Source: a virus | Strand: one strand, 5' to 3' | Length of the DNA stretch: 45,775 bases | IMG/VR virus record: IMGVR_UViG_3300047497_000289 | Span: 1-45,775 of that record | Shown: positions 4,660-30,594 of the stretch, piece by piece | Numbering within the stretch: the stretch's first letter is position 1 | Layout: each line of letters opens with the position of its first letter | Notes under the pieces: generated by a model | The model's database searches: none | Seen by the model: the letters and a program-made list of their open reading frames with translations, nothing else | What the model was told of the DNA's origin: nothing | Program-made: the position numbers and the translations under genes

Positions 4660-4661
4660 TT

Positions 4662-5844: not shown

Positions 5845-5957
5845 ATCGGCCTCTTGCAGTACCAGCACAGCGCATTGCGCGCCTTCTCCAACGGGCCGCC
5901 GCATACGTTGCAATTGCCGCGGAGCAAATCGCGCTCTGCCTCGATTGCGCTGCTCAT
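5841..5957 (-). CDS. 38-residue zinc-ribbon-like protein
   Basis: This small gene has two Cys-x2-Cys pairs (CNVC and CWYC), a pattern expected to bind one zinc ion. It begins MSSAIEAERDLL and ends KRPI. Its start overlaps the stop of the membrane-protein gene upstream, and its stop overlaps the DUF4224 start, each by four bases (ATGA). That chain of overlaps is the main evidence that it is real. The role is unknown; similar zinc knuckles occur in many phage early operons. Confidence 0.75.
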   Translation of the reverse strand: MSSAIEAERDLLRGNCNVCGGPLEKARNALCWYCKRPI

Positions 5958-6163
5958 GGCGTCGCATCCGCGTGGGCCATGTCCTCAAGCGTCGGCGCGT
6001 GATCCAGCTCGCGCACGCATGCCATGCCTCCCGACAGTTTGCGCACCGGTACACCGCCCTGGCTGGTGCACCGCGCGGCCTCGTGATGCTGGTACGCGAG
6101 GAATGCGACGAGCACGACGGCCGCGACGGCAAAGCAAAGGTAGTCTCTGAATTTATCGCTCAT
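5954..6163 (-). CDS. Small membrane or exported protein
   Basis: The 69-residue protein has one hydrophobic helix near the N-terminus (about residues 9-24, LCFAVAAVVLVAFLAY) after a short charged head. A polar tail with two cysteines (C32, C49) follows, which might form a disulfide if exported. GGAGAT stands directly before the ATG. It is joined by ATGA overlaps to the genes on both sides. No known family was recognised. Confidence 0.7.
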   Translation of the reverse strand: MSDKFRDYLCFAVAAVVLVAFLAYQHHEAARCTSQGGVPVRKLSGGMACVRELDHAPTLEDMAHADATP

Positions 6164-6672: not shown

Positions 6673-6734
6673 GACTGCGCCTCTCGCGAATGCCGGGCAT
6701 CGTTGCAACACGGATAGGTATTGCAAGTGGCCAT
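6669..6734 (-). CDS. Possible 21-residue cysteine-containing microprotein
   Basis: The frame reads M-A-T-C-N-T-Y-P-C-C and ends in REAQS. Its ATG shares TAATG with the stop of the gene upstream, and its stop shares ATGA with the membrane-protein start. Such coupling on both sides is unlikely by chance and fits the style of this operon, but length alone makes it uncertain. It may serve only to carry ribosomes to the next gene. Confidence 0.45.
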   Translation of the reverse strand: MATCNTYPCCNDARHSREAQS

Positions 6735-6931
6735 TACTGTTTCTCCTGTGAAGAAGGTGCTGCAGGCTTGTTCGTCGGCGCGATGCCGGCCAGCGCGCTA
6801 TGCCACGGCCAGCGGCGCCGAAAGTGAAGGTTCACGAGCATCAGCTCGCGCTGATCGGCCGACAGGCGCGGATAGATCGCGCGCACGTAGGGGCCGGCCG
6901 CGTCGAGCAGCTCGGCGCCGTGCTTATCCAT
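6734..6931 (-). CDS. Hypothetical early phage protein
   Basis: The 65-residue product is mostly helical by composition in its first 40 residues (ELLDAAGPYVRAIYPRLSA) and has a Pro/Ala/Ser tail. It resembles short proteins of phage early operons but carries no motif I can name. The start overlaps the end of the upstream gene by eight bases. Confidence 0.65.
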   Translation of the reverse strand: MDKHGAELLDAAGPYVRAIYPRLSADQRELMLVNLHFRRRWPWHSALAGIAPTNKPAAPSSQEKQ

Positions 6932-7271
6932 TCGCCACCTCGCGCGACTCGCTGAGCTGCTCGACTAACGCCGTCAGCTCGTTGATCTTGTTGGCCTGCT
7001 TCACCGAGTGCGAGTGAAGGCGCGCGATGACGTTGCTCGCCTTCTCAAGCGCGGCCGTCAAGGCGCTGCGCTCGCTCGGCCGCGAGTGCGTGCCGGCTTG
7101 GAGCTGCAGCGCGATCCGCGTGCATTCAACGATATCCTCTTGGATGTTGCGCATTAGCTCGGGGAGCAGCGGGCGCGCTTTCGCCTTCGCGTTCGCCAGC
7201 TTCTTGGATTGGTGGCGGGCGCGCGATAGCAGGCGGCTTGCCACAAAGAATTCTTCGGCACGATTAAGCAT
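6924..7271 (-). CDS. Hypothetical helical protein
   Basis: The 115-residue product is rich in Ala, Leu, Lys and Glu, with a likely coiled coil in the last 50 residues (heptad-like ALTAALEKASNVIARL, then INELTALVEQL). The N-terminal third is basic. Its start overlaps the stop of the gene upstream by eight bases. No enzyme motif was seen. Confidence 0.7.
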   Translation of the reverse strand: MLNRAEEFFVASRLLSRARHQSKKLANAKAKARPLLPELMRNIQEDIVECTRIALQLQAGTHSRPSERSALTAALEKASNVIARLHSHSVKQANKINELTALVEQLSESREVANG

Positions 7272-9323: not shown

Positions 9324-10363
9324 TAGGCGGCCTCCCCTTGCGCTTCGCGCTTGTCGCCCTCATCGAACAGCGCGAGCGTGTTGGTATCGCCGGCATTCTG
9401 CATGGTGCCGATGTCGGTGTTATCGCTCGCGGTCGTGGGCCGCTGCAGCTCGTCGGGCTCGGCTTGCGCCTTGGTGTCGAGTTCGGCTTTGCGCTTGTCC
9501 TTCGCCTCCTCGAAGCGCTTCAGGGCGGCGAGGTCGCCTACCTTCTTCGCCGCGCGCTGCGCGGCGGTCCATTGTCCGCGCAGCACAATCATGTCCTGTG
9601 CGTTCTGAATCGCGGTTAGATGCGCCTTCGCTTCGTCGGCATTCATCTCGGGGTCTGCGGGCGGCTGCTGCTGCGCAGGCGGCTGCTCAGCCACGCCAGA
9701 GTCAAGCCACTGCGCCAGGCGCTTGCCGGTCTCAGCCGTGATGATGTGCGGTTGCGGGAAAAGTCGCGTGCGGTCTTTGCTCGCGACGGCCCAGTGTCCG
9801 CTATGCTCCAGGTCTAGCACGACGGTGAATTCGTATTCGAACCCGTCACGCTGCACGGCCTTCATTCCGAGCTTTTTGACTTTCTTGTCGTCGCCTTGGA
9901 CGGTCTCAGTCTTGCTACGCGAGGTGGCGATGATGTGCATGGGCGACTGCAGCATCGCGTCGATAAAGGCGCGGTGGCGCGGCGTGGTCTCGCTCCATGC
10001 GCTCCAGGTGTTGCCGCGGAATTTCGCCTGAGCTATCTGCTCGTTGATGTCGAGACAGCCGCCCGAGCCGTCCCATTCGTGCGTCGCGCTGTCGACGATG
10101 CAAATGTCGAAGCCTTCACGCGCTGCGAGTGCGAGCGCTTCAATGTAGCGCTCGGGCGTGTAGGGCGGTGTCAGTTCGAGCGTCGCGAAATCGACCATGT
10201 CGCTGTAGAGAGATGCGGAACCGTGTTCCGTATCGATCACGGCGATTTTGCCGCCGATGCCTGCGGCGAGGAGCAAAGCGGAGTAGGTCTTACCGGAACC
10301 GCTTGGGCCAGTGACGGCGAGGCGGAGTCGTGCTTGTTTGCGTTGTGCTTTCTGAAATTGCAT
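9323..10363 (-). CDS. Sak4-like recombination ATPase (AAA_24 / RecA-core)
   Basis: The start at 10361-10363 is preceded by GAGGGT and gives 346 residues. Walker A is GPSGSGKT (residues 19-26), and the Walker B-like strand is FDICIVD ending at D91. The segment IIATSRSK after residue 155 fits the sensor of RecA-type cores. A charged, Gln/Pro-rich tail covers about 230-346. Sak4 proteins support SSB-dependent single-strand annealing in phages, and SSB lies two genes downstream. The open frame extends upstream without a credible start. Confidence 0.85.
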   Translation of the reverse strand: MQFQKAQRKQARLRLAVTGPSGSGKTYSALLLAAGIGGKIAVIDTEHGSASLYSDMVDFATLELTPPYTPERYIEALALAAREGFDICIVDSATHEWDGSGGCLDINEQIAQAKFRGNTWSAWSETTPRHRAFIDAMLQSPMHIIATSRSKTETVQGDDKKVKKLGMKAVQRDGFEYEFTVVLDLEHSGHWAVASKDRTRLFPQPHIITAETGKRLAQWLDSGVAEQPPAQQQPPADPEMNADEAKAHLTAIQNAQDMIVLRGQWTAAQRAAKKVGDLAALKRFEEAKDKRKAELDTKAQAEPDELQRPTTASDNTDIGTMQNAGDTNTLALFDEGDKREAQGEAA

Positions 10364-10477
10364 TTTTGTATACCCTCGATGTGTTGCTGATGTTCTAACT
10401 GTTGCTGGTGGAACTCGGCGGCGTTCATAGCCGGCGCGCTCGGTAATGCGGGTCATGAATGGTCCGAAAGAATGGAG

Positions 10478-10492
10478 CATGCTTATCCGGTT
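10478..10492. repeat. 15-bp inverted repeat left of the methylase gene
   Basis: CATGCTTATCCGGTT at this place is the exact reverse complement of 11228-11242. It overlaps the stop codon of the adenine methylase gene, which lies wholly between the two copies. Confidence 0.9.
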
Positions 10493-11207
10493 AGCGCCCA
10501 TAGTCCGCGTCCGCGGGCACGAACAAGCGTTCGGTGCGAGACTCCTTGCCGTTCGCGCTCGTGCGAATGTCCGTTTTCGTGGTGACTTCAAAGGCAACGC
10601 GAAAGGTTGGTGGGGCTGTGTACTCTGACACGAACACCGCGTATCCCTCCGCGTGCTTGGCAAGACACCAATCCCAAAAATCACTCCAACTGAAGGCTCC
10701 CACGGCCCCGTATTGGGTCGTGCCGGCGTAGGGCGGGTCGCAGTAGATCACCGCACTAGTGGGCAACGGACACGTCCTATAGTCCCCACAATGCCAGCGC
10801 ACACCCTTCAAGCCATGCGCCTTTTTCCTCAATGACGACGCGGCATTAGCGGCGTAGTTACGATTCTCGCCGCCGCGCGCGTATCCACCAAACCATTTCC
10901 CGGCGAACGAAACGCCGAACCCGATGAACGCCGTGAGTGGGTCGGACGGGTCTCGCCTACGATTCGCGTCTGCGTATTCATCCTCGTTGACGTATTGCGG
11001 GGGCACCCACCCGTCGGCGAGCGCACGCCACATGGTCATTAGGGCCTCGTTTGCGTCGCCGCCTACGCGATTGGGGGCGGGCTGCGCGGTCATCATCGCA
11101 GCGCCCCCAACGAACGGCTCGACGTAAGCGCCGCGCTCCGCGACATAGGGGCGCATGAACGCTGCCAGTTTCGCCGCCGTTCGCTGTTTACCGCCGAAAT
11201 ACTGCAT
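10491..11207 (-). CDS. D12-class DNA adenine N6-methyltransferase (Dam-like)
   Basis: The 238-residue enzyme would methylate adenine in double-stranded DNA with SAM. Motif X is YFGGKQRTA at residues 3-11, motif I is EPFVGGAAMM at 30-39 and the catalytic motif IV is DPPY at 157-160. It is a little shorter than E. coli Dam. No restriction enzyme is adjacent, so it is an orphan methylase that may protect phage DNA or influence phage gene control. AGGA lies before the ATG, which shares TAATG with the upstream stop. A 15-bp inverted repeat brackets the gene. Confidence 0.93.
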   Translation of the reverse strand: MQYFGGKQRTAAKLAAFMRPYVAERGAYVEPFVGGAAMMTAQPAPNRVGGDANEALMTMWRALADGWVPPQYVNEDEYADANRRRDPSDPLTAFIGFGVSFAGKWFGGYARGGENRNYAANAASSLRKKAHGLKGVRWHCGDYRTCPLPTSAVIYCDPPYAGTTQYGAVGAFSWSDFWDWCLAKHAEGYAVFVSEYTAPPTFRVAFEVTTKTDIRTSANGKESRTERLFVPADADYGR

Positions 11208-11395
11208 TACGCATTCCTATGGGTATCAACCGGATAAGCATGGAATGGAGAATTGAGGCGGCGTAGCAGCGTCGCGCGGCGCTGGCGGCGCGTGATGCGA
11301 ATGCTTCCGCCAATCGCGGCGCCGGTCAGGGGCAGCGCCATGACCAGGGCGCAATGTGCGCAGGATAGGTGCGCCCACCATGCCGCGAAGCTCAT
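11207..11395 (-). CDS. Small putative membrane protein
   Basis: The 62-residue frame has a hydrophobic first half (AAWWAHLSCAHCALVMALPL, then GAAIGGSI) and a strongly basic second half. One helix with a positive-inside tail is plausible. It joins the HNH gene by ATGA and the methylase gene by TAATG, which is the main support. The methylase-side inverted repeat lies within its 3' end. Confidence 0.55.
   Translation of the reverse strand: MSFAAWWAHLSCAHCALVMALPLTGAAIGGSIRITRRQRRATLLRRLNSPFHAYPVDTHRNA
11228..11242. repeat. 15-bp inverted repeat right of the methylase gene
   Basis: AACCGGATAAGCATG pairs exactly with 10478-10492. Both copies also have GAATGGA close by, which hints that the repeat was once longer. 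Confidence 0.9.
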
Positions 11396-11808
11396 GCTGC
11401 CACCGCGGCGCAGGCGTAGCAGGTGGCGCCTTCTGAAATCTCAAGGCCGCATTCGCCGCACAGATTGCCGCGCGCGATAGCCGCTGCGCGTGCGCGCTCG
11501 TCGCGTCGGCTGATGTTCTCCGTCGAAGTGACGGCATCGAGGTGCTCGGGGTTGATGCAAAGAGAATTGACGCACGTGTGATCGACTTCCAAGCCCTCGG
11601 GGATCGGGCCTTTGAATGTTTCGAAGGAAACCCGGTGCGCCGCTCGGTTCACGTGCTTGCCGGCAATGCGCAGCGTTATGCGCCCGACGAAGTCGCCGCC
11701 TCGCCGAGCGACTTTTTTTGCGGTCCAGAGCCAGCAGCCGGTGAGGCGGTTGATACGGACGTGGGCCTTGAGGCGCTCGGCGAGGCTGGCGTATTTGCGG
11801 CGGCTCAT
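11392..11808 (-). CDS. HNH endonuclease with C-terminal zinc ribbon
   Basis: The 138-residue protein carries an HNH core at residues 73-100: the DH pair at 76-77, then SLCINPEHL with H89, typical of the small phage HNH family. Two Cys-x2-Cys pairs at 117/120 and 130/133 form a likely zinc ribbon. It could be a homing-type nuclease or take part in packaging; its place in the early left operon, far from terminase, favours a homing or accessory role. ATGA overlaps link it to both neighbours. Confidence 0.88.
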   Translation of the reverse strand: MSRRKYASLAERLKAHVRINRLTGCWLWTAKKVARRGGDFVGRITLRIAGKHVNRAAHRVSFETFKGPIPEGLEVDHTCVNSLCINPEHLDAVTSTENISRRDERARAAAIARGNLCGECGLEISEGATCYACAAVAA

Positions 11809-12137
11809 ATGCCGGCCTTCGCGAGCGCGGCGCGCATGGCGTCGGTGATGTCCTTCACGTGTGCCGGTGTGATGGGCTCGCGGCTGTCGACCATCGCGAG
11901 GTAGCCGCTCAGAGCGGCGGCCATCTCAGGCGCGGCGGCGATCAAGTACGCATTCGCTGAGACGCGCTCCTCGGTCATTGCGCATTCGGCGACGTAGCTG
12001 CAAGCGTCGGGAAGTTCTGCAATCGGCGTGAGTTCGCCGAGCTTGAGCGGCGGTCCACCGTACACGGTCCACGAATGCAGGGGGTTGACGTTGACCGCGG
12101 CGACCCAGGGGGCTGGCGTGTGCTTGGGGGCGCTCAT
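11805..12137 (-). CDS. Hypothetical early phage protein, paralogue of the next gene
   Basis: The 110-residue protein begins with HTPAPW and contains NAYLIAAAPEMAAAL and a helical C-terminus ending in AMRAALAKAG. The gene at 12134-12412 has the same plan (HTPTPW, an alanine-rich helix, MHAALAKVQS). The HTPxPW start and the residue order NA.LIAAAPEM.AAL are well known from uncharacterised phage proteins. No function is established. Confidence 0.75.
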   Translation of the reverse strand: MSAPKHTPAPWVAAVNVNPLHSWTVYGGPPLKLGELTPIAELPDACSYVAECAMTEERVSANAYLIAAAPEMAAALSGYLAMVDSREPITPAHVKDITDAMRAALAKAGI

Positions 12138-12412
12138 GATTGCACCTTGGCGAGCGCGGCGTGCATCATGCGGTTCGCTGCGTCGTGGTCAGCGCTGGCC
12201 GGGTAGAGCTTGCAATTGCGTAGTGCCATCAACGCTGCTACTAATTCATCGTGCGCGTTGACACACTTGACGATATGGGCGGCGTTCGCTTCTGCGTTCG
12301 CGGCCGGATCAGCAAATATTTCGCCTATCGTGAATCCCAAATCAGGGCCGATAAGGTCAACGCCTTCGGCATGCCTGTGCGTGGTCCAAGGCGTCGGCGT
12401 GTGAGTGCTCAT
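12134..12412 (-). CDS. Hypothetical early phage protein, paralogue of the gene after it
   Basis: The 92-residue protein starts with HTPTPW and has NAAHIVKCVNAHDELVAALM in the middle, the common pattern of small phage ORFs of unknown function. It probably arose with the 12137-11805 gene by duplication. It is the second gene of the leftward operon and shares ATGA with both neighbours. Confidence 0.75.
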   Translation of the reverse strand: MSTHTPTPWTTHRHAEGVDLIGPDLGFTIGEIFADPAANAEANAAHIVKCVNAHDELVAALMALRNCKLYPASADHDAANRMMHAALAKVQS

Positions 12413-12768
12413 GACAGCACCTCATCGGCGAATCCGTCCTGCTGCGCGACTTCGAGCGGGTGCAATCGATATTCGCGCCGGCCTTCGCGAAAGTCAGGCG
12501 AACGCTGCAAGGAGATCGCGGCGAGCTTCTCGAGATTTTTCTCGCGGCGGCGGCGGTTGGCGTCATGCGTGTACAGCTCGACGCGGATCGCCTCGACCGT
12601 GGCCGACGGCAGGAACTCGACGCCTTTGACGGCTAGAAGCTGGTCGTCAAGGCAATCCGGGCCGCTGTACAGCTCGATATGCCCGATGGCGTTTGAATTG
12701 CGCTCGTTGTAGTGGACGACGAGCCAGAGGGGGAAGAACCCGGGGAGGGGAAGGGTAGCGGTCTGCAC
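12409..12768 (-). CDS. Hypothetical protein, first gene of the leftward operon
   Basis: The start is GTG at 12766-12768, with AGGAGAG eight bases upstream, and gives 119 residues. The N-terminal half is beta-rich (FFPLWLVVHYNERNSNAIGH), the C-terminal half basic and helical. No family was recognised. It follows the operator-covered promoter by about 30 bases and so should be expressed earliest in this arm. Confidence 0.7.
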   Translation of the reverse strand: MQTATLPLPGFFPLWLVVHYNERNSNAIGHIELYSGPDCLDDQLLAVKGVEFLPSATVEAIRVELYTHDANRRRREKNLEKLAAISLQRSPDFREGRREYRLHPLEVAQQDGFADEVLS

Positions 12769-12802
12769 GTTTTCTCTCCTTTCGGCGAAATGCCGAGAGG
12801 AG

Positions 12803-12831
12803 ACAATACCAACTACTAGTTGTGATTACAA
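12803..12831 (-). promoter_or_regulatory. Early leftward promoter (pL-like)
   Basis: On the minus strand TTGTAA (12826-12831) and TATTGT (12803-12808) are 17 bases apart. Two operator dyads overlap the -35 and fill the spacer, so repressor would block polymerase. The transcript would start about 30 bases before the first gene. A perfect TTGACA further upstream (12891-12896, minus strand) has only a weak TAACGG at 17 bases. Confidence 0.6.
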
Positions 12832-12841
12832 CTATTAGTTG
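12810..12841. promoter_or_regulatory. Left operator, two repressor sites
   Basis: CAACTACTAGTTG (12810-12822) and CAACTATTAGTTG (12829-12841) are each perfect dyads around a central base and lie 19 bases centre to centre, about two helical turns. They share the CAAC-N5-GTTG form with four sites near the cI/cro genes. They overlap the leftward promoter. Confidence 0.75.
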
Positions 12842-13064
12842 GGATTTGGGGCAACCGAAGATAATCGCCGTTAGTTACGGCACTTTAGTTTGTCAATAGA
12901 GAATACCCTTACTGTAAAAGGGCGAAAATCCTACAGCGGGAAATGTGGCGACAGGGCAACGTGAGAGGGGGATGGGTGTCGCTATGGTCCTTCGAGCAAG
13001 TCACGGATTCCGGTGTTTGTCAGGGAGTTATTCGGCACCTCATCGTCGACTCGAAGGGTGCCCC

Positions 13065-13511
13065 CTATTTTTTTGCGGGGCTAGCGTGTTGCCACACTCC
13101 CCCGGTATTCGGCTGCGGGTCGTCGCGCCATCCGCTGTCAAGCACTCGCTCGGCGGCTATCTGTAGGCTCGGATCAGCATTTCGGAATGCCTGCAAAAGT
13201 AGTAATTCGCGCTCGCTGTATAGGGCAGAGCGGGGCGGCTGCGGCTTCGATTCCGGCCAGTTCGGACTTTCGCCAGTAGCCAACCATTGTTGATTGGCGC
13301 CAGTAATTTTGCAGATCATAGTCAGGTGGGTCTGATCGGGGAATGCTTCCCCTTTCAGCCATTTGGTCACGCCTTGATCCGATAGGGCGACCTTGAATTT
13401 ATTCTTGAATTCGTCCCGAAGCCATGGTGCGCGGCCCCTTTCCTTTGGGGGTGCGCCCTTGACTAGGTCGATAGCCTCATGCAGGCGTTCTGCAAACGCG
13501 CGTCTCTGCAT
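13065..13511 (-). CDS. CI-like phage repressor, HTH only
   Basis: Started at 13509-13511 the product is 148 residues. A helix-turn-helix of the Cro/CI type covers about residues 33-75 (VALSDQGVTKWLKGEAFPD, then HLTMICKITG), followed by WLATGESPNW as in many phage repressors. The C-terminus is a short helix and a polar tail. The S24/LexA-type peptidase domain is absent, so RecA-triggered self-cleavage is not expected. It is divergent from the Cro-like gene, with operators between. An upstream ATG (13530-13532) lies inside an operator and has no ribosome site. Confidence 0.8.
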   Translation of the reverse strand: MQRRAFAERLHEAIDLVKGAPPKERGRAPWLRDEFKNKFKVALSDQGVTKWLKGEAFPDQTHLTMICKITGANQQWLATGESPNWPESKPQPPRSALYSERELLLLQAFRNADPSLQIAAERVLDSGWRDDPQPNTGGVWQHASPAKK

Positions 13512-13525
13512 GTCTTTACCGGCTA

Positions 13526-13616
13526 CAACCATACGTTGCAGTGTAACCAAGCTACGGTCGATTATCAGTTGCGATTCAATGCCAACCGCAAGTTGACCAT
13601 TCCCAACCGTGGGTTG
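13526..13616. promoter_or_regulatory. Central operator region between cI and cro
   Basis: Three sites of the CAAC-N5-GTTG form occur: 13526-13538, 13583-13595 and 13604-13616, the last two 21 bases apart. TTGACC (13593-13598) with TAACCT (13617-13622), spacer 18, is a reasonable rightward promoter overlapped by two of the sites. GATAAT on the minus strand (13561-13566) is a candidate -10 for the repressor gene, although its -35 is unclear. Confidence 0.7.
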
Positions 13617-13629
13617 TAACCTATGTTGC

Positions 13630-13878
13630 ATGGACATAACGCAATCCGAGGGCGAGACCCTCACCACAGAAACTTTGCCCGTGCAGCTCGCTATCGACGC
13701 GGCGGGCGGTGAGAGCAAGCTCGCGCGCCAGTGCGGCATAACACCGCAGGCCGTCCAAGGCTGGCGCCGTCGTAAGCGGATACCGCCCGAGCGTGTATTG
13801 CAGATTGAGCGAATCACAGGCATCTCGCGCCACGATCTGCGCGCCGATCTGTACCCGCTCGAATCTTCCGCAGGGTAG
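13630..13878 (+). CDS. Cro/YdaS-like DNA-binding protein
   Basis: The 82-residue protein carries one helix-turn-helix at about residues 26-60 (GGESKLARQCGITPQAVQGW, then PPERVLQIERITGISRHDLR), the pattern of Cro and YdaS-type regulators that use sequential numbering of lysogenic switches. It faces the repressor gene. The ATG at 13630 has no ribosome site; the predicted transcript start is at or next to that ATG, so the mRNA may be leaderless. A GTG at 13609 would add seven residues but lies inside an operator. Confidence 0.8.
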   Translation: MDITQSEGETLTTETLPVQLAIDAAGGESKLARQCGITPQAVQGWRRRKRIPPERVLQIERITGISRHDLRADLYPLESSAG

Positions 13879-13935
13879 GGCGTTTAAGTCATCCAAATTT
13901 TTAAGTTAAACCACTGCCGCACGCCTGGTGGATTA

Positions 13936-13948
13936 CAACCGTTAGTTG
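13936..13948. promoter_or_regulatory. Distal operator-like site
   Basis: CAACCGTTAGTTG fits CAAC-N5-GTTG. The preceding GATTA is shared with the left operator site at 12829, giving an 18-base near match. No good promoter was found across it in either direction. It may act on the replication operon or the small minus-strand gene. Confidence 0.6.
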
Positions 13949-14007
13949 CGACGCAGTATGGGAGAGATGTTTTGCACGTTGTAGGGGATTTGACTAAACG
14001 CCCGAAA

Positions 14008-14154
14008 TTAGTGTTGCGGGCCTTCCCGGTTCTTCAATTCCATCAGCATCACCTGAATGTTTTTAACGCGATCTTCAATGTCAGTAACGGTGTTGAAGAT
14101 GGCCCACAGGCCCAGGCTGATCCAAATCATCGCGCCGAAGAAATACCAGTTCAT
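14008..14154 (-). CDS. Minus-strand 48-residue membrane microprotein
   Basis: The frame begins MNWYFFGAMIWISLGLWAIF, one clear transmembrane helix. An amphipathic charged helix follows (DIEDRVKNIQVMLMELK). GGA lies before the ATG. It runs against the rightward early genes, between cro and the replication gene, where no plus-strand frame looks coding. Small single-helix phage proteins of this shape include superinfection-exclusion factors and holin regulators; function here is unknown. Confidence 0.65.
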   Translation of the reverse strand: MNWYFFGAMIWISLGLWAIFNTVTDIEDRVKNIQVMLMELKNREGPQH

Positions 14155-17212: not shown

Positions 17213-19969
17213 ATGTTGCGATCCTTGAAAGCGCTGCTACTGCTGGCGTTCGCGTTGCCCGCGTTTGCCGCGTATCAGCCGATCATCACCACGCCGGGGT
17301 CAGCCGATAACCTGGCATCGGGCGGCGCGAAGCTCGACGCTAACTTTGTCGATCTCTACGGCACCCTGTACGCGCCGATCACCGGGGACGTGTCGATAGC
17401 CTCGGGCACGAATCACAGCTCGATCAATCCGGGCTCGGTCACGCTCGCCGACTTCGCGAACTTCCCGGCCAATTCCTACCCTTGCAATTTGTCGGGCTCC
17501 TCCGCGGCGCCCTCCTGGTGTACGCCTGGCACGGGCTCGGGCGGCGGGACGAGCAGCGCGTACAACACGCTGAACCTGTGCAGCTACACGGGCGGCGGTC
17601 AAACCGTCGACCCCAACGGCGTCAATGACAGCCTCGTAGCCGTCAACAATGCATTCCAGACCTATGGCGGGACCAATACCGTCATACAAGTCAATTGCCC
17701 GATTTACCTGCACATGGGCAATAGCGCGAATCAGATTTATGTGAAGGCCGGCACCAATGTGATGATCGGTCCTACCGGTCAATTCATTGTCGATAATACC
17801 GGCGTCAATGTTTTCGTTTGGGTGAACGTCCGCGGCGGGACCTGGACCTGCGCCAACGTCACGAGCAATTGCATCGAGTACAGCGCCAACGCGGGCGCGC
17901 TGATGGCCGGCTGCGGCCTGAGCTGCGGTCCGTTCGCGCCAGGCGTCAGCGCCGAGTATTCGGGGCTGCAAAGCTATCTCACCGCGCACGGCGTCAGCAT
18001 GGGGACGACCGGACAGCCGTCTTGGCAGGGTCAATCGCCATTCCTGCCGGTCTTTGCTCTGCGCGGCAATACGACTGACATCACTTTCCGCAACATGTCG
18101 TTTGGTGCGCCGGCCGGGGCGAATCCGCAAGCGTTCATGCCCGCGGCGGTCGGCCTGTATTTCGAGTGGAACGTCGGCGCGACCGCGGCGAGCCCGAATA
18201 CGCCGGCCGCCGACTCGGCCAACATGTCGATCCCGACCGACATCACGTTCGATCACACCATTGTCGATGGTGTCGATATGGCGTTTCAGGGCAGTTGCTA
18301 CTGCAAGTTCTACAACACTGAGGGCAAGCGCTACTCGGATATGCAGGACGGGACGGGCGGCTCCGTCACGTTCGCGACCTTGGGCTCGACCAGTGCGACC
18401 CTGCCATCGCCCTGGACTTTGGCTACCGGTCAATACGCGTTCACGACGACGGCTTCGCAGACGATCTGCGCCCAGTTCACGCAGGGCCAGACGCTCGTCA
18501 ATAACTACCTCACGTGCGGGTCTGGTACTGCAAACAATCCGTCCGGGGCCGGGGTCTCGACCACGCTATACGGTTCTCCATCGCTCACCGTCGCGACGGG
18601 GAACATCGGCGGCTTTAACCAGTGGTTTGCGCCGCCGCACCTTTACTACATTTTCGACCAGCTCGTCGCCGGCACCAAACAACAGCTCGTTATTCAAGGC
18701 ACCGTCGACCAGGGGCCTTTTGTCACGCTCCTCCCGAATGAGCGGCCAGGCGGTACGCTGCTCTCGCTTAAGACCAGCCTCACCAATAACACGATAGTAG
18801 ACAGCTACACGTCGCTGCGTCCCGAAGGCTTCCTCGATTTGGAGCCGTGCACCAGCACGTGCGGCGGTCGATTCAGCAACATTTACGTTTCGTTCAATTC
18901 GCAGACGCCGACCCTCAACGGTACGCCTATCTGGGGTTGGCGAATTATCGGCGGCCCGATTCAAGATGTCGTTTTCAGCGACATCAGCATATTTGACCAG
19001 GCGACCGAGCCGGCTGCCTTCCCGGTCAACGGCGTGGCCATCCCTTGCGGCTCGACCGATGTCGAGTTTCGCAACTTCCGAATTTTCCTTAACGATTGGC
19101 CGCTGTCGGCGACCTGGTTCCCGTCGTATCAGTTCTGTGGCGATCATTTAAAATTTCAGAGCGAGATACACCTCGCGGCCTCCAGCTCTACGGCGACCTT
19201 CCACGGGCCGTTCTACCAGCAAGGAAGCAACCTAGTCCAAAACTCAGATATGGACATTTCGGTCTTTGGCTGGCGCCAATTTCCGATGACCTTTACCGCG
19301 AATCCCGCGGTAAACGACACGACCGAAACCCTGTTGACGGCATGGCCTTATAGCTCGGGCTCGTGCGAGATATACCTGACGGACGGCTCCATTCGATATG
19401 CCACCGTCACGAACAATTCGACCACGCTCGGCACCTTCACCAATGGATTCGGCGTCAACACGCCGATCAGCACAGCATCGAGCGCGACGGGCGCGGTGTG
19501 CGGCGGCGCGAGCGCGCTGCGCGATAACTACACGGGCTACGAAGCGCGCATAGGCATTTCGCAGAGCGGAAAGGGCTACGGCAACCATTTCCATGTCCGC
19601 GACGTTGATGCGAATTGGGAAGCGACTGAAAGCGGTCAGACGACCATCGAGGATTGGTGTCAAGAGCTTGTCGGTACGCCCACCTCGCCGACCATCATCA
19701 GCTTCCCAAACTATTTCGGCATCTACGCCACGAGCTGGCAAGTCGACACCGCGCTCGTGGGCGCCACGGGAACGATGAACATCGGATTTTCGGGCGGCTC
19801 GCAGCTCTTGAGCGGCGGCACGATCACCACGAGCAACAACCAATTTCCTTGGGTTGCGCCTGTCACCAGCACCGGCAATGCCGTGACGCTCACGCCGACC
19901 GGGGGCACCGTCACGGGCGGATCGGCGCAGTTGTCCGTCTGCGCGCGCTCGGTCTCGACCACACACTAA
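17213..19969 (+). CDS. Large exported beta-rich protein, probable tailspike or adhesin
   Basis: The start at 17213, after GGAG, gives 918 residues. A Sec signal peptide (LRSLKALLLLAFALPAFAA) occupies residues 2-20 or so. Next comes TTPGSADNLASGGAKLDANF, a short segment I associate with N-termini of phage tail fibres. The body is rich in Gly, Ser, Thr and Asn, with features of a beta-helix spike (repeated ITFRNMSF-type strands around 290-370). Paired cysteines are frequent, which suits an exported protein. A pectate-lyase-type depolymerase is possible, but no catalytic set was identified. Confidence 0.6.
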   Translation: MLRSLKALLLLAFALPAFAAYQPIITTPGSADNLASGGAKLDANFVDLYGTLYAPITGDVSIASGTNHSSINPGSVTLADFANFPANSYPCNLSGSSAAPSWCTPGTGSGGGTSSAYNTLNLCSYTGGGQTVDPNGVNDSLVAVNNAFQTYGGTNTVIQVNCPIYLHMGNSANQIYVKAGTNVMIGPTGQFIVDNTGVNVFVWVNVRGGTWTCANVTSNCIEYSANAGALMAGCGLSCGPFAPGVSAEYSGLQSYLTAHGVSMGTTGQPSWQGQSPFLPVFALRGNTTDITFRNMSFGAPAGANPQAFMPAAVGLYFEWNVGATAASPNTPAADSANMSIPTDITFDHTIVDGVDMAFQGSCYCKFYNTEGKRYSDMQDGTGGSVTFATLGSTSATLPSPWTLATGQYAFTTTASQTICAQFTQGQTLVNNYLTCGSGTANNPSGAGVSTTLYGSPSLTVATGNIGGFNQWFAPPHLYYIFDQLVAGTKQQLVIQGTVDQGPFVTLLPNERPGGTLLSLKTSLTNNTIVDSYTSLRPEGFLDLEPCTSTCGGRFSNIYVSFNSQTPTLNGTPIWGWRIIGGPIQDVVFSDISIFDQATEPAAFPVNGVAIPCGSTDVEFRNFRIFLNDWPLSATWFPSYQFCGDHLKFQSEIHLAASSSTATFHGPFYQQGSNLVQNSDMDISVFGWRQFPMTFTANPAVNDTTETLLTAWPYSSGSCEIYLTDGSIRYATVTNNSTTLGTFTNGFGVNTPISTASSATGAVCGGASALRDNYTGYEARIGISQSGKGYGNHFHVRDVDANWEATESGQTTIEDWCQELVGTPTSPTIISFPNYFGIYATSWQVDTALVGATGTMNIGFSGGSQLLSGGTITTSNNQFPWVAPVTSTGNAVTLTPTGGTVTGGSAQLSVCARSVSTTH

Positions 19970-19981: not shown

Positions 19982-20500
19982 ATGTTCGCTAAGCTGAAAA
20001 ATACCTTCTTGCTGCTCCTCGCAGTGATGTGCTTTTCCTCGCTTGCCTGGCAGCCGGCGCAGGCGGCCTCGTTCTCGTATTTCCTCATCAATAAGCTGCT
20101 CGACTCCATTGCGCGAGGGCAGACGTACACGCCGCCCGCGACGTTGTACATCGGCCTGGCCACGAGCAGCGGATCACAGTCGGCATGCGGTAGCGAAGTC
20201 ACCGGCACCGGCTATGCACGGGTGGCGTATGCCAGCTCGCTCACCAATTGGAGCGGCACGCAGGGCGCCGGCAGTACGACCCCGTCGAGCGGTACGAGCG
20301 ATCAAATATCGAACAACGTGGCGATTGTCTTTGGCTCGCCGACGTCCAATTGGGGCACCGTCACGACGGTATGCGCCTGGGACGCCTCGACGGGTGGGGA
20401 CCTGATATGGTTCCAGGCGCTGCAAACCTCGCAGGCCATCGCGAGCGGCTCGCAGCCTCCGCAGTTCGCCATCGGCTCCCTGGTCTGGTCCCTGAACTAA
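19982..20500 (+). CDS. Tail-fibre-type protein with a signal peptide
   Basis: The 172-residue protein has a clear Sec signal peptide (KNTFLLLLAVMCFSSLAW, then QPAQAA as cleavage site near residue 29). The mature part matches a common phage tail protein pattern: TLYIGLATSS, EVTGTGYARVAY, then a C-terminal beta region. That family is normally cytoplasmic and built into the virion, so the signal is unexpected. It lies 12 bases after the large exported protein. Confidence 0.7.
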   Translation: MFAKLKNTFLLLLAVMCFSSLAWQPAQAASFSYFLINKLLDSIARGQTYTPPATLYIGLATSSGSQSACGSEVTGTGYARVAYASSLTNWSGTQGAGSTTPSSGTSDQISNNVAIVFGSPTSNWGTVTTVCAWDASTGGDLIWFQALQTSQAIASGSQPPQFAIGSLVWSLN

Positions 20501-20506: not shown

Positions 20507-22204
20507 ATGGGAGTCTACCGACCCTCGACGCTCGTCATTGAGTGTCCGACCGCAAGCGCGGACGGCCTCTATCACGGGCGTTACCCGCATGGGAATGCGC
20601 CGGCACCCTCGATGCTCGCCGCGGCCATTGCCGACATTACGGGAGGCTCGGCGAATCTCACGATAAGCCCTGCGACGGGCGCGCAGCTCGCCGCGACGGT
20701 GTCTGATGTCAGCGGCGGGTCGGCCTCGTTGGGCTTTGTAGCCGGCGCCTCGATCCGCGTTGGCTCGGGTGCGCTGTCGACGACCTTCGTCGACCAGAAC
20801 AACAACCCCGTGCAGCTCATGGGGTTCAACGTCAGCGGCATGGAGGACAGCATCCCGCAGGGCTTCGAGCCTTGGGCGGATGACGGCGGTACGCCTGACT
20901 GGGCGGGTATGCGCAACAACTGGGGCGCGAACTTCGTGCGCTTGCCGGTCTGCTCAAACGCGATCCTCGGCGACACGATTTGCCCGACGGCGACGCAGGC
21001 TATCTCCTTCACGGCGACGCCTGGCGCTAACTCCACGAGCGGCCAGCTCGAGACCGCCTGGCCGTTGGCGAGTGGGTACTACCCGATTTGCGGGACTGAT
21101 ATCAATTGGTCGGGGTATTTCACTCAGGACTCAAAGACGGTGACCTGGCCGGAGCTGGCGTACGCCAATGGCAACGCGGCGCCCAACGCGGTCATATGGG
21201 GCACGCCGCGCAGCGCCGATCCCTACGGGAATGCCGTTGCGGCGCTCGATGCGGCTATCGCGGGCGCGCAGCAGAACGGCATGATTCCCATGATCGACAT
21301 GCACCGCGTCGGTCCCTATCTCACGTTCGGCCAGACGAGCTACTACCTCGCGGCCATCGCTCAACAGCCCATGGCCGACTATCGGGCTATTGCTTTTTGG
21401 GAGTTCTGCGCGAACCGCTACGGCACGCAAGCCGCGCCCATCACGGTCAATGGCTACACGATCAACAACAACCTGATCGTATTCGGCCTGTGCAACGAGC
21501 CGCGCTTGAGCGACTACGGCGGCCCGGTCTATACCGGCAAGAACGGCACGGGGACGAAGCTCACGCAAGACACCGCGCTTTTGACCAGCGGGTGGGCCTC
21601 GGGCGTCGTCAATCAGAGCCAGGGCGGCACTAACTATTCAATCACGGCGCAGTGGCAGACGGCCGGCTATCAGGACATCGTCAACGCGATCCGCGCCACG
21701 GGTGCGCAGAATCCCTGCGGCCTGTCCGGTAACTACTGGTCGGGCCAGGTTGCGAATTTCGAGATTTACACGCCGATAGACTCGGCTAACCAGCTCTTTT
21801 ACGAGTGGCACGCCTACCCGAATGCGTCGAGCTACGCCAACGAGACGGCCGATCCTTGGCCGAGCAATGGCGTCACGAATCCGGGCTCGGGCACCTCGGC
21901 GAACTACAACGGCGCCAATTCGCTCATTGCGGCCGGCAAGTGCCTGTTCATAACCGAATACGGCGACTACGGCGGGACGACCATCACGGGCGGCTGTCCG
22001 TCCATGACGAACCTCCTCAACTGGATATTCGAGCAGACGCACCCGGTCTCGAATGCGGCGTGGCAATTCAACAGCTATAGGCCGTACAACACCACGTCCG
22101 AGCAGTTCTTCCTGAACAGGTGGACCGATAGCACCCAAACGGCCTACACCGCTATAACGGGCTGTGGGACGGTCCTGCAGCCTCGCATGTTGGAGCGCGC
22201 ATGA
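20507..22204 (+). CDS. Tailspike-like protein with GH5 glycoside hydrolase domain
   Basis: The 565-residue protein has an N-terminal part (1-85) with two copies of an ITGGSANLTIS-like strand, then a GH5 TIM barrel. The barrel motifs occur in order: ANFVRLPV (141-148), IPMIDMH with H266, VFGLCNEP with acid/base E331, FYEWHAY with H435, LFITEYGDYG with nucleophile E484, and AAWQFNSY at the end. GH5 enzymes cut beta-1,4 glucans or mannans. Here it probably breaks down a capsule, cellulose or exopolysaccharide on the host surface. There is no signal peptide, unlike the two genes before it, and no clear ribosome site. Confidence 0.82.
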   Translation: MGVYRPSTLVIECPTASADGLYHGRYPHGNAPAPSMLAAAIADITGGSANLTISPATGAQLAATVSDVSGGSASLGFVAGASIRVGSGALSTTFVDQNNNPVQLMGFNVSGMEDSIPQGFEPWADDGGTPDWAGMRNNWGANFVRLPVCSNAILGDTICPTATQAISFTATPGANSTSGQLETAWPLASGYYPICGTDINWSGYFTQDSKTVTWPELAYANGNAAPNAVIWGTPRSADPYGNAVAALDAAIAGAQQNGMIPMIDMHRVGPYLTFGQTSYYLAAIAQQPMADYRAIAFWEFCANRYGTQAAPITVNGYTINNNLIVFGLCNEPRLSDYGGPVYTGKNGTGTKLTQDTALLTSGWASGVVNQSQGGTNYSITAQWQTAGYQDIVNAIRATGAQNPCGLSGNYWSGQVANFEIYTPIDSANQLFYEWHAYPNASSYANETADPWPSNGVTNPGSGTSANYNGANSLIAAGKCLFITEYGDYGGTTITGGCPSMTNLLNWIFEQTHPVSNAAWQFNSYRPYNTTSEQFFLNRWTDSTQTAYTAITGCGTVLQPRMLERA

Positions 22205-22674
22205 GCCTGACTGCCTCGGTCACCCTCGCCGCGCCCCTTTACGTGGGACCGGGCGGGGTGCTTGATCCCGACTTCTGGCTCGACAATGTGCCGGCAGCCG
22301 GGGATACGCTGCAGTACGACGGGACCTACCTCACCATCGAGCCCAACGGCGAGACGGTGTGGACCACCAACAACGCGACCGCGGCGGTGCAGTTCGATGA
22401 TGGGACGGGCCTGGCGACGGGCACCATCACCATTACCCCCGATATGGTCGCGTACGTGGCCGACACGAGCGGCGGAAGCGCGACGCTCACCCATCCCGCG
22501 CCGGAAGTGGCTACGGACGTTTATTTCGACTCGACAACGGTCAAGTTCGACAGCACGACCGTCTTTTGGGATGGCACGCACGGCAACAGCGGCCCGCTGT
22601 CGATCGACCCCTTGTACATCGTCACGCGGCCGTCGCGTCGTACCTTCACCGTCAGCAGGAACATGGCCCAGTGA
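22201..22674 (+). CDS. Hypothetical beta-rich late protein
   Basis: The 157-residue protein is made of short beta stretches with many Thr, Asp and Gly, including TGTITITPDMVAYVADTSGG and a duplicated FDSTTV. The start overlaps the GH5 gene stop (ATGA). It is probably a small virion or adaptor protein tied to the spike genes; the family is unknown. Confidence 0.65.
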   Translation: MSLTASVTLAAPLYVGPGGVLDPDFWLDNVPAAGDTLQYDGTYLTIEPNGETVWTTNNATAAVQFDDGTGLATGTITITPDMVAYVADTSGGSATLTHPAPEVATDVYFDSTTVKFDSTTVFWDGTHGNSGPLSIDPLYIVTRPSRRTFTVSRNMAQ

Positions 22675-22982
22675 GCGTTTACTTCGACACGAAAGACCCG
22701 GCAGAGGCCGTACCGCTGACGTTTGACTTTACCCTGGACCTTGCCACGGGTGAGACGCTCACCGGTACGCCGACCGTCACCGTTACGACATTCTCGGGCG
22801 TCGATCTCACGCCCGCCGACATTTTGAACGGCTCGCCGACGCTCGATACAACCAGCATGAAAGTGCTCGTACCCGTCATTGCCGGGAATATCGGCTGTGT
22901 CTATCAATTCGTCGTGGAGTGCGCGACCACGAACGCTTATAAGACGCTCGTTTTCGTCGCGCTGCTACCCGTCAACCGCTAG
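22671..22982 (+). CDS. Conserved-type small late protein
   Basis: The start is GTG at 22671 and shares GTGA with the upstream stop, giving 103 residues. The pattern of strands (FDFTLDLATGETLTGTPTVT, then VYQFVVECATTNAYKTLVFV) matches a family of small phage proteins found near spike and capsid genes. The fold is probably an Ig-like sandwich. No function is established. Confidence 0.7.
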   Translation: MSVYFDTKDPAEAVPLTFDFTLDLATGETLTGTPTVTVTTFSGVDLTPADILNGSPTLDTTSMKVLVPVIAGNIGCVYQFVVECATTNAYKTLVFVALLPVNR

Positions 22983-23305: not shown

Positions 23306-23704
23306 ATGGCGAATCGGACAAAGCTGACACCAAAGAAGCGCAAGGCGTTTATTGCGGCTCTCGCGACCGGGAGCGTGTCCAAAGCCTGCGAAATGATCGG
23401 CATGTGTCGGCAGCGGCTTTATGAGGTCAAGGCGATTGATGAGGCGTTCTCCAAGGAATGGGATAGCGCTATCGAGCAGGGAACCGACGCGCTCGAAGAT
23501 GAGGCATGGCGCCGAGCGGTCGAAGGCGTCGACGATCCGGTGTACTTCATGGGCACGCGCGTCGATACCGTGCGCAAGTACTCGGACGGCCTGCTGACGC
23601 TGCTCTTGAGGTCGCGCCGGCCGGACAAGTATCGCGAGCGCACCAGCACGGAGCTGACGGGCAAGGATGGCAAGCCGCTCGCTGTCGTGGTTGAGTTCAT
23701 CTGA
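23306..23704 (+). CDS. Terminase small subunit
   Basis: The 132-residue protein recognises phage DNA for packaging. Its N-terminus holds a helix-turn-helix (KLTPKKRKAFIAALATGSVS, then KACEMIGMCRQRLYEVK) of the small-terminase type, followed by EDEAWRRAVEGV, RKYSDGLLTLLLRSRRPDKY and a C-terminal GKDGKPL, all common to this family. The ATG at 23306 fits the family start better than an upstream one at 23267. The terminase large subunit follows directly. Confidence 0.9.
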   Translation: MANRTKLTPKKRKAFIAALATGSVSKACEMIGMCRQRLYEVKAIDEAFSKEWDSAIEQGTDALEDEAWRRAVEGVDDPVYFMGTRVDTVRKYSDGLLTLLLRSRRPDKYRERTSTELTGKDGKPLAVVVEFI

Positions 23705-24963
23705 CGAATCGAGCGCAGCTTCCCAAGAAGCTGAAATTTCTCTGGGAGCCCAAGCGGTACAAGTCGATCCGCGGCGGCCGTGGTAGCGCCAAGAGCTGGT
23801 CAGTCGCTCGCACGCTGCTGATTAGGGGCACCATGCGCCCGCTGCTCGTGCTGTGCACGCGCGAGGTGCAACAGTCGATTAAGGCGTCGTGCCATAAGCT
23901 GCTCTGCGACCAGATCGCTAACTTGGGACTGGGCGCCTTCTACGACATTGGCCAGGCCGAAATAGTCGGCGTCAATGGGACGAAGTTCATGTTTGCCGGC
24001 TTGTCCGACCAGACGGCCGAGTCTCTCAAGTCGTATGAGGGCGTCGATATCGTGTGGGTGGAGGAGGGCCAGGTCACCTCCGAGCGTTCCTGGGAAATCC
24101 TGATACCGACCATCCGGCGCGATGGCTCGGAGATTTGGATTACCTGGAATCCGCGCCTTGACACGGATGCAACGTGGGTGCGCTTCGTCGAGAAGCCGCA
24201 TCCTGAGACCATCGATTGCGAGATGAACTGGCGGGATAACCCGTGGTTTAACTCGATCATGGAGGCCGAGCGGCTGCACGCCAAGGCGACCATGACGAAT
24301 GCGCAGTATGAGAACGTCTGGGAGGGCAAGTGTCTACCGGCGATCTCGGGCGCGATCTACGCCGATGAGGTCGCGGCGATGTACACAGAGGGTCGCATCG
24401 GCGCCTTCCCGTACGATCAGCGGCTGTTGGTCTATCCGGTCTTTGATCTTGGGTGGAATGACAGCATGGTGGTCGGGCTCTGCCAGCGCGTGGCAAGCTC
24501 GATGCGCGTCATTGACTACATCGAGGACAGCAAAAAGACCCTCGCCTGGTACTCGGCGCAGTTGCGGGCGAAGCCGTACAACTATGGAACGCTGTTCCTG
24601 CCGCACGACGGTGACCACGGCGACTACAAGACGGGCGCCAGCGCGAAAGACCTGATGGAAGGCTTGAGCTGGACGGTTCACGTGTTGCCGCGCGTCGACA
24701 TAGAGCACGGCATTCGAGCCGCTCGCATGATGTTCTCTGGCGCGTATATCGACCGCGAGAAGTGCGCGCGCCTGGTGGAGTGTCTGAAGCGCTACCGCCG
24801 CGGTGTGCCGAACAGCACGGGCGAGCCGGGCTCACCAGTTCACGATGAATTCAGTCACGGCGCCGATATGTGGCGATACGCCGCAATGGCTGCGCCTGAG
24901 ATGACCAATTCTCAGGGCATGAGTCTGCCGGCGCTGAAGTACGGCAAATCCGGCATCGTTTAA
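23701..24963 (+). CDS. Terminase large subunit, apparent CTG start
   Basis: The packaging ATPase-nuclease has 420 residues when read from CTG at 23701. The first ATG (23833) would cut off the P-loop RGGRGSAKS (residues 24-32) and the family N-terminus LPKKLKFLWEPKRYKSIRGG. No ATG, GTG or TTG occurs in frame between the upstream stop at 23692 and 23833. CTG at 23701 shares CTGA with the small-subunit stop, like the other overlaps in this phage. Walker B is VDIVWVEE (to E122), and a nuclease-type FDLGWND follows at about residue 212. The protein is close to the XtmB/Terminase_3 type. Confidence 0.9.
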   Translation: MTNRAQLPKKLKFLWEPKRYKSIRGGRGSAKSWSVARTLLIRGTMRPLLVLCTREVQQSIKASCHKLLCDQIANLGLGAFYDIGQAEIVGVNGTKFMFAGLSDQTAESLKSYEGVDIVWVEEGQVTSERSWEILIPTIRRDGSEIWITWNPRLDTDATWVRFVEKPHPETIDCEMNWRDNPWFNSIMEAERLHAKATMTNAQYENVWEGKCLPAISGAIYADEVAAMYTEGRIGAFPYDQRLLVYPVFDLGWNDSMVVGLCQRVASSMRVIDYIEDSKKTLAWYSAQLRAKPYNYGTLFLPHDGDHGDYKTGASAKDLMEGLSWTVHVLPRVDIEHGIRAARMMFSGAYIDREKCARLVECLKRYRRGVPNSTGEPGSPVHDEFSHGADMWRYAAMAAPEMTNSQGMSLPALKYGKSGIV

Positions 24964-28404: not shown

Positions 28405-28751
28405 TTAAGCCTACAGTGGGTCGCGTTGTGTTGTTTCACCCTGAAAATGACGTTGCCTCGGGTAACTTTGCCCCCGCGCCAATATGCGCCGGTATTGTTG
28501 CTCACGTTTGGTCAGACACGTGCGTCAATCTGGCGGTATTCGACCGCGACGGCGTGCCGCACTCGTACACCTCCGTGCTTCTCGTTCAGGACGGAGACGC
28601 GCTGCCAGATAACGGGCGTTATGCCGAATGGATGCCATACCAAAAGGGGCAGGCCGAAAAGGCTGAGTCGCTAGAGTCGGCGCTGTCCAAGAAATTGGAG
28701 CCGCTCCTAGAGGCTGCGATTCAGGTGGCATTCGCGAGGGCGTTCAAGTGA
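28401..28751 (+). CDS. Conserved-type phage protein of unknown function
   Basis: The 116-residue protein starts with KPTVGRVVLFHP and has AGIVAHVWSDTCVNLAVFDR, a pattern I know from small proteins in many tailed phages. The fold is probably a small beta barrel. A helical C-terminal part follows (LESALSKKLEPLLEAAIQVA). It shares ATGA with the portal gene. No function is established. Confidence 0.7.
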   Translation: MIKPTVGRVVLFHPENDVASGNFAPAPICAGIVAHVWSDTCVNLAVFDRDGVPHSYTSVLLVQDGDALPDNGRYAEWMPYQKGQAEKAESLESALSKKLEPLLEAAIQVAFARAFK

Positions 28752-29104
28752 AGCGCCTCCCCTTCGCGCTCGCCGCTCTCCTCGCTGCCGGCGTCGCCAG
28801 CGCTGCAACAGCATCGCTCTCCTGGACGCCGCCGACGGCGAACGTCGACGGTTCGGCCATTACCGGGACCATCACCTACAACGTCTACCAGGGCGTACAA
28901 GGGGCGACGCCCGCTAAGGTGCAAAGTGCACTCACCACGGCGAGCGCGACGGTTACCGCGGGCCTCACGCCGGGGACGACGCAGTGCTTTACCGTGACGG
29001 CCGTCGTCAACGGGGTGGAGAGTGCGCAGAGCAATAGCGGGTGCGCGGCGGTCAGCTATCCGACGCCGGGTGCTCCGACGCAAATCACCGTAGTCATTCA
29101 CTGA
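28748..29104 (+). CDS. Exported fibronectin type III-like protein
   Basis: The GTG start overlaps the upstream stop (GTGA) and gives 118 residues. A signal peptide (KRLPFALAALLAAGVASAA) precedes one Fn3-like domain: LSWTPPTANVDGSAI, ITYNVYQG, then TPGTTQCFTVTAVVNGVES. A single domain of this kind often mediates binding to sugar or cell surfaces. As an exported protein it should reach the periplasm or outside, not the virion assembly site. The next gene also encodes an exported protein. Confidence 0.75.
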   Translation: MKRLPFALAALLAAGVASAATASLSWTPPTANVDGSAITGTITYNVYQGVQGATPAKVQSALTTASATVTAGLTPGTTQCFTVTAVVNGVESAQSNSGCAAVSYPTPGAPTQITVVIH

Positions 29105-30594
29105 TGAAGCGTCTATGTGTCGCGGTTGCCGCGTTGTTCGCGGTAATCGCAGCCCATGCGGCGATCATGACGCCGCCGAGCGGCGGTGACACGTTCACCG
29201 GGGTGACTGGCACGGTCTACACCAGCTCGGGCACTGCGATCACGATAGGCGACGGTGACAAGCGCCTTGCGCTCATTCGCAATTGGGTGGAGGTCCCGTA
29301 TCAATCGCAGGTCCCGACCTTCGCGCAGTTGTCGCCGCTCGGCGGCCCGCCCACCTACACGAGCGACCAGGGTCTAGCCGTTTGGAGTGGTACGGCGTGG
29401 GTCGCAGTGGGGAGCGGTATAAGCGCATTGCCGGCCGGCGCGATCTTCGGCGCGGCGTGTACGACTGGCACGTGCGCGCCTTCCGCGCTCTCATCCACGG
29501 ATCTTCTGTTCAACACATCGAACGATATGCTAACCATCGGTGGCTCGCAGTCTGCCAACGAGTCGAGCGTGTTCTCGAATTTCACCGTTATCAACCCGCC
29601 TGCAGGAACGTTTTCGGCGGCACGTGGCTGGGGCTTGTATCTGAAAGGTGGCGATAACAACTCGGCTACTGCTGGTAGCACCGCTGGCGGGGTAATTATC
29701 CAGGGCGGTACGATCACCAATCCATCGGCAAGCACCATAACTGGTGCCGTGTCGATTCGCACCGCGCCGGAAGAAGTCAACGCTACCGGGAATTACGGGT
29801 CAACCCAACTCATCAAGATTTACAGTGGCGGCACTACCACGGCCGGGGCACAGTCGGGAAATGTGCTTTTGTCTACCGGCCCTTCGCCCGGCAACACTGG
29901 GAGCATGATATTTCAGACCGGCGCCAACCTTGGGACGAGCGGCGTAGTTGGAAGCGGCAATTTTCAGTTTATCGTAGGTAGTGTGACAGCCGGCGGCACC
30001 GGGCTCGGTGGGAATTTCACTGTAACGCTTCCGCAAGAAGATAGCCCTGCACTCAACACGTACCATGGGTCGTTTGTCGTAAGCGGCGGAGAAATTCTCG
30101 GAATTTCCTCTAAACAGGATTGGTTCACAAACGAGACCCTAGCGGGAAGTATTGTGTTGCAGCCGTCACTGTCCTCATGCGATCCGTGCAACGGCAACGG
30201 ACAAGTGATGCTCCTCGATGCAGACGGAACGGGCGGCGTCGAAGTCGACTATCAGGGCTCGCTCGAAGCCTATAGCGGCATTATCGACAACAACGAGGAA
30301 ACCTCCTACACCGCGGCTATCAGCGGCACGGGATGCACCGCGATTGCGAGCAAGACTGGCGGCCCGACCGCTGGCGCGTTCAACGTCACGGCGACGGCGG
30401 GCTCTACCTGCACGATCACGCTCACATTCGGCGGCCTCACGGCTACCGGGTGGGTATGTCATGCCTCCGAGTCATCGAGCGGCGTGGCCATTCCTCAATT
30501 CCAGTCGGCGGTGTCGACCACCTCTTGCACCATCAAGGGGACCATCGCGACGAGCGGCGATTTAGTAACTTGGGACGCGCGAGGCTACCGATAA
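29104..30594 (+). CDS. Exported beta-rich fibre-like protein
   Basis: Started at 29104 (TGATG overlap) the product is 496 residues. A signal peptide (KRLCVAVAALFAVIAAHAA) is followed by the PPSGGDTFTG domain shared with the 70-residue protein at 24976, then by a Gly/Ser/Thr-rich beta region with repeats such as GGVIIQGGTI and GNVLLSTG. Near the C-terminus TGCTAIASKTGG and TATAGSTCTITLTFG resemble the tail-fibre C-terminal folds of other phages. It is probably a fibre or surface protein; the signal peptide is odd for a virion part. Confidence 0.7.
   Translation: MKRLCVAVAALFAVIAAHAAIMTPPSGGDTFTGVTGTVYTSSGTAITIGDGDKRLALIRNWVEVPYQSQVPTFAQLSPLGGPPTYTSDQGLAVWSGTAWVAVGSGISALPAGAIFGAACTTGTCAPSALSSTDLLFNTSNDMLTIGGSQSANESSVFSNFTVINPPAGTFSAARGWGLYLKGGDNNSATAGSTAGGVIIQGGTITNPSASTITGAVSIRTAPEEVNATGNYGSTQLIKIYSGGTTTAGAQSGNVLLSTGPSPGNTGSMIFQTGANLGTSGVVGSGNFQFIVGSVTAGGTGLGGNFTVTLPQEDSPALNTYHGSFVVSGGEILGISSKQDWFTNETLAGSIVLQPSLSSCDPCNGNGQVMLLDADGTGGVEVDYQGSLEAYSGIIDNNEETSYTAAISGTGCTAIASKTGGPTAGAFNVTATAGSTCTITLTFGGLTATGWVCHASESSSGVAIPQFQSAVSTTSCTIKGTIATSGDLVTWDARGYR

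Follow-up and report, generated by a model that had tools for sequence, protein, structure and literature searches.

The window analysed here comprises the 45,775 bases of an IMG/VR virus record, in which an SU10-type portal, a terminase, a major head protein and a scaffold protein were recognized, the portal being remotely related to LUZ24-like and other phage portals. Within it, the genes for a large spike, a Gp80-type short fibre, a GH5-type glycosidase, a fibre-like protein, a Gp77-type adaptor and the terminase follow one another in that order (Table 1). The GH5 gene is therefore flanked by Gp80 (fiber I) immediately upstream and by Gp77 (fiber-tail adaptor) two genes downstream, with the large spike farther upstream, and the location beside spike-like genes that had been noted from the letters alone was recovered as a tail-fibre module. 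Gp80 and Gp77 are Pfam names for tail-fibre parts of podophage GP4. As in the fibre module of Ralstonia phage GP4, both families (PF23140 and PF23148) are present and close together; the GH5 protein and the signal peptides are extra features of the window. The short fibre also matched PDB entry 8jou chain a (2.4e-6). In tblastn the spike matched structural proteins of Cellulophaga phages that carry the annotation pectate lyase (24-28% identity), and the fibre-like protein was matched by blastp to the fibre proteins of two viral records, L002 and L188 (30% over 93 aa, 3e-7). GC content of the GH5 gene was 0.63 overall and 0.83 at third positions, and the neighbouring genes were alike.

Table 1. 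Positions in the window of the GH5 gene, its parts and the adjoining tail-fibre genes
Feature	Position	Strand	Basis
Large spike-like protein, 918 aa, Sec signal peptide	17213..19969	+	Cellulophaga phage matches; homologue in L188
Gp80-type short fibre (GP4 fiber I family), Sec signal peptide	19982..20500	+	PF23140, 8.7e-33
GH5 protein, 565 aa, whole gene	20507..22204	+	PF00150, eight residues, model and fold matches
N-terminal segment, residues 1-76, resembling the adjoining fibre-like protein (22201-22674)	20507..20734	+	Local alignment
GH5 catalytic domain, residues 92-562	20780..22192	+	Profile match (profile includes the window protein itself); barrel strands in model
Barrel insert, residues 164-231	20996..21199	+	Missing from cellular relatives; first part resembles a spike stretch
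E331 codon, predicted acid/base	21497..21499	+	Invariant in 59 relatives; position checked in sequence
E484 codon, predicted nucleophile	21956..21958	+	Invariant in 59 relatives; position checked in sequence
Fibre-like protein, 157 aa	22201..22674	+	Ending also found in sister-phage fibre proteins
Gp77-type fiber-tail adaptor (GP4 family)	22671..22982	+	PF23148, 2.7e-6, exceeds its cut-off

The open reading frame was confirmed at the coordinates first proposed for it, from an ATG at 20507 to a stop at 22204. Its product was assigned to the Cellulase/GH5 family by a Pfam profile search (PF00150, E = 2e-21, 77.1 bits against a cut-off of 23.5), in agreement with the sequence-only reading, and GH5 was the sole Pfam domain detected, with no Ig-like domain and no fused Gp77. 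All of the GH5 landmarks claimed in that reading were present, although the classical positions number eight (R145, H266, N330, E331, H435, Y437, E484 and W519) and not six. The placement of E331 in an NEP motif and of the nucleophile at E484 was exact, because NEP starts at residue 330 and TEYG at 483.

The GH5 protein matched no PHROG, and when its sequence alone served as query no close relative turned up in PDB, phages, viral contigs or genome contigs. Since the scans of the latter three were empty, cellular relatives were sought via a weak plasmid match and were gathered using patterns from the window protein and one relative. The nearest sequence relatives were bacterial GH5s, largely actinobacterial, at about 25-32% identity and with an identical catalytic set. 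Across an alignment of 59 cellular relatives the same eight active-site residues were invariant; of 112 columns with 90% or higher conservation among these relatives the window protein retains no more than 53, yet it has all eight of the catalytic ones (p = 0.002 for a random draw). A profile built from the cellular relatives only scored the window protein at 65 bits (2.6e-19), and the best of 200 shuffled copies reached 9 bits.

Structure was predicted with AF2 from a 62-row alignment (mean pLDDT 62, pTM 0.70), and the resulting model has its barrel strands in order as a TIM barrel, with low confidence at the N-terminus; a single-sequence prediction gave a pLDDT of only 31 and was of no use. 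In the AF2 model N330-E331 directly follows one strand (325-327) and E484 is part of another (480-485), these being strands 4 and 7, and the best PDB fold matches were all GH5 cellulases (top E = 1.5e-11). The sequence-only reading had staked its assignment on a GH5 profile match and on a TIM barrel carrying these two glutamates; the former was found by profile search and the latter, a (beta/alpha)8 barrel that places the glutamates at strands 4 and 7, was found in the predicted model. E331 would serve as acid/base and E484 as nucleophile in the retaining double-displacement mechanism of GH5.

Two parts of the protein resemble its phage neighbours. Residues 1-76 aligned locally with the adjoining fibre-like protein with a score of 64 (as high in 3 of 20,000 shuffles), and the insert within the barrel aligned with the window spike (score 75, 1 of 3000 shuffles as high) and with the spike of the sister record L188 (score 64, 3 of 3000 shuffles). 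These likenesses are modest and were spotted first and shuffle-tested afterwards, and a phage search with the insert-like stretch of the spike returned chance-level matches only. No hydrophobic N-terminal signal was found on the GH5 protein, in which it differs from secreted bacterial GH5s; those of Streptantibioticus cattleyicolor and other actinobacteria are cellular and are without the phage-type N-terminus or the barrel insert. Taken jointly, the N-terminal and insert likenesses suggest, modestly, a tie between the GH5 protein and its phage neighbours.

The sister record L188 has the same order of spike, short fibre, large protein, fibre, Gp77 and terminase, with a Gp77 that is 65% identical to that of the window and a spike that is 45% identical along its whole length. 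The large protein in the slot corresponding to GH5 (5032-7113, about 693-695 aa) is not a GH5 and had no match in Pfam, PHROG or PDB, and a stretch of it closely resembles the spike of the same record (score 114, 0 of 3000 shuffles). The GH5 insert compared directly with this slot protein was not significant (91 of 3000 shuffles as high), so that the likeness runs only through the spikes, and the GH5 N-terminus matched neither the slot protein nor the fibre of L188. Given its SNEVWN and AYEG motifs, we take the slot protein to be perhaps another glycosidase. When 98 related or fibre-linked records, many of them short fragments, were searched whole, a GH5 was found in L036 alone, whose terminase is related to that of the window (53%). 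The L036 protein (11983-14103, ~707 aa) is a different GH5, located between portal and scaffold genes, whose GH5 domain is preceded by ~120 residues and followed by ~250. A further viral contig (L183), which also carries a 1200-aa tape-measure-like protein, encodes at about 9605-11491 a GH5 that itself bears a signal peptide, a secreted-enzyme layout that contrasts with the window protein.

The novelty of a phage GH5 that was implied by the sequence-only reading had been overstated, as 35 phage records already carry a GH5 of the type found in Erwinia phage S6. These comprise Erwinia, Klebsiella, Serratia and Pseudomonas phages, among them PEp14, phiEaP8, LASTA and Parlo, and three unannotated faecal phage records. 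A viral fold search returned the GH5 proteins of Erwinia phages phiEaP8 and pEp_SNUABM_01, Pseudomonas phage Skulduggery and Klebsiella phage SopranoGao. In both SopranoGao gp18 and Skulduggery SKUL_18 a Gp77 domain, Ig-like domains and GH5 are joined in one protein, and PHROGs places the SopranoGao protein in a tail protein family. Their GH5 is thus tied, like that of the window, to a GP4-type Gp77 adaptor domain, whereas the window encodes Gp77 as a gene of its own, two genes from GH5, and has a GH5 of another lineage. S6 Gp95 is a GH5 with Ig-like domains that adjoins a GH48 protein; S6 virions reportedly degrade cellulose through Gp95, and P. fluorescens SBW25, the host of Skulduggery, is a cellulose maker. 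According to a review, S6 is unable to infect hosts without cellulose (PMC11512310), and host exopolysaccharide was proposed as the target of the Lastavirus endoglucanase by its authors (PMC10052179). Gp95 and its relatives share with the window protein a position in the tail or spike region, mostly of short-tailed phages, and a probable role in cutting host cellulose. In contrast to Gp95, the window protein belongs to a different lineage and has neither Ig-like domains nor a neighbouring GH48 protein. GH48 proteins with a Calx-beta domain were located beside the GH5 in phiEaP8 and S6 (L185, 7108-9516; L187, 21339-23768), each of which thus has two cellulase families side by side in one phage.

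Membership of the window protein in the S6 type was considered and rejected. A profile of four S6-type GH5s scored it at 10 bits (E 0.018), about the level of shuffled sequences; in the tree the S6-type proteins formed a 98/99 clade with the window protein outside it; and PHROG gave no match. The exclusion itself is based on the tree and the weak S6-profile score. In the same tree the window protein grouped with the cellular set with weak support (82/77) and on a long branch, a closeness that is somewhat biased because that set was collected with patterns from the window protein and one relative. The simplest reading of these sequence comparisons would be that GH5 was recruited a second time, independently, into a tail module of the Gp77 type.

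We propose, with a probability of roughly 0.7, that the window GH5 is a tail-associated, matrix-cutting glycanase of a short-tailed phage, most likely a beta-glucanase that opens a cellulose-like coat around the host. The phage-type N-terminal segment would fix the protein in the Gp80/Gp77 fibre assembly, and the exposed barrel would cut a beta-1,4-glucan that surrounds the host, with bacterial cellulose the likeliest, letting the tail reach the cell surface. We infer that the protein is present in virions, that it is active on such a substrate and that it has a role in infection. By analogy, a role in the tail is suggested by the Gp77-GH5 fusions, by the occupation of the L188 slot by another large protein, and by the position of the L036 GH5 among virion genes. 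The odds that the substrate is cellulose itself are about even; cellulose is better backed than mannan, as the PDB fold neighbours are mostly cellulases and S6 provides a precedent (PMC11512310), although the substrate could also be mannan or another beta-glucan. Against the proposal, the spike and Gp80 bear signal peptides, the N-terminal and insert likenesses are modest, and the cellular relatives are secreted enzymes and could act on plant polymers.

The last point leads to the possibility that the protein is an auxiliary metabolic enzyme, a soluble GH5 made in the infected cell and freed at lysis to degrade plant or environmental polysaccharide. Virus GH5s from soil and rumen contigs have been expressed, found active on mannan or carboxymethylcellulose, and read as auxiliary (PMC6786970, PMC10465536); the soil endomannanase (Emerson 2018, PMC6786970) resembles the window protein, by description only, as a GH5 on a viral contig, and differs in having been shown active and read as an auxiliary metabolic gene. 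The nearest relatives of the window protein are, moreover, bacterial and largely actinobacterial, and L183 bears a GH5 equipped for secretion. The window GH5, however, is missing an export signal, its gene lies between two tail-fibre genes and carries phage-type extra segments, and cultured phages exist whose GH5 is joined to a tail adaptor domain. An auxiliary role suits the gene position and architecture less well and is considered unlikely.

Sec-type signal peptides were called on four spike- or fibre-like genes of the window, the spike, the Gp80 short fibre and the genes at 28748-29104 and 29104-30594, using a simple hydropathy rule and not a trained predictor. When a ribosome-site requirement was added to this rule, 8 of 95 related loci were flagged, mostly for small lysis-like or other secreted-looking proteins. 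Signal peptides are kept in L188 on the spike (1148-3919) and on the short fibre (3952-4446), the latter matching phrog_3758 (virion structural protein) from residue 33, and in the window Gp80 homology begins directly after the predicted cleavage point. By the same rule the L188 slot protein, like the window GH5 protein, has no signal peptide. Signal peptides on the spike and Gp80 are unusual and are not explained by ordinary cytoplasmic tail assembly.

These signals would be accounted for if the spike and short fibre left the cell by Sec and the module, together with GH5 released at lysis, loosened the matrix around infected cells with no cytoplasmic tail assembly. The clear signal peptides in both the window and L188 and the start of Gp80 homology at the cleavage point favour such a toolkit, as does the fairly high cysteine content of the spike and GH5; the terminase of the window is cysteine-rich too, and cysteine content is therefore weak evidence for export. 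Since the GH5 itself is without a signal peptide and the Gp80 and Gp77 families are named for GP4 virion parts, we regard this explanation as improbable. It is very doubtful that the spike and short fibre are Sec-exported while the adjoining slot swaps large proteins including GH5, with the matrix-cutting part completed outside the cytoplasm or acting on the host surface before lysis. Least probable is a loss of catalysis that would leave the barrel as a receptor-binding protein that only binds glycan. Such a loss would fit how far the sequence has diverged (its branch is long, its insert is large and it is about 30% identical to cellular relatives) but not the retention of all eight catalytic residues in a protein that has changed at about half of its remaining conserved columns.

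If the window GH5 is indeed a tail-associated glucanase, tail-fibre modules of phages have taken up GH5 on two or more occasions, and in every case a GP4-type Gp77 is either its neighbour or its fusion partner. A cellulose-like matrix would then be suggested as a recurrent barrier or receptor for podophages, and some of the soil viral GH5 genes now assigned to carbon metabolism may serve in entry.

Several other features of the window were recorded. A full-length cobalamin (B12) riboswitch (RF00174, 99.6 bits against 31.5) is located at 3604-3824 on the minus strand, upstream of the phage class I ribonucleotide reductase genes nrdA (1002-3383, minus strand) and nrdB (1-1005, minus strand); none was found among 29 related viral records searched. 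At 3996-5636, genes for tRNA-Arg, tRNA-His and tRNA-Lys lie beside a tyrosine-recombinase-like gene and perhaps mark a lysogeny region. The terminase frame (23701-24963), which includes a GGRGSAKS nucleotide-binding motif, begins before the first listed ATG (23833); there is no ATG, GTG or TTG upstream of this ATG, and a rare start codon may be used.
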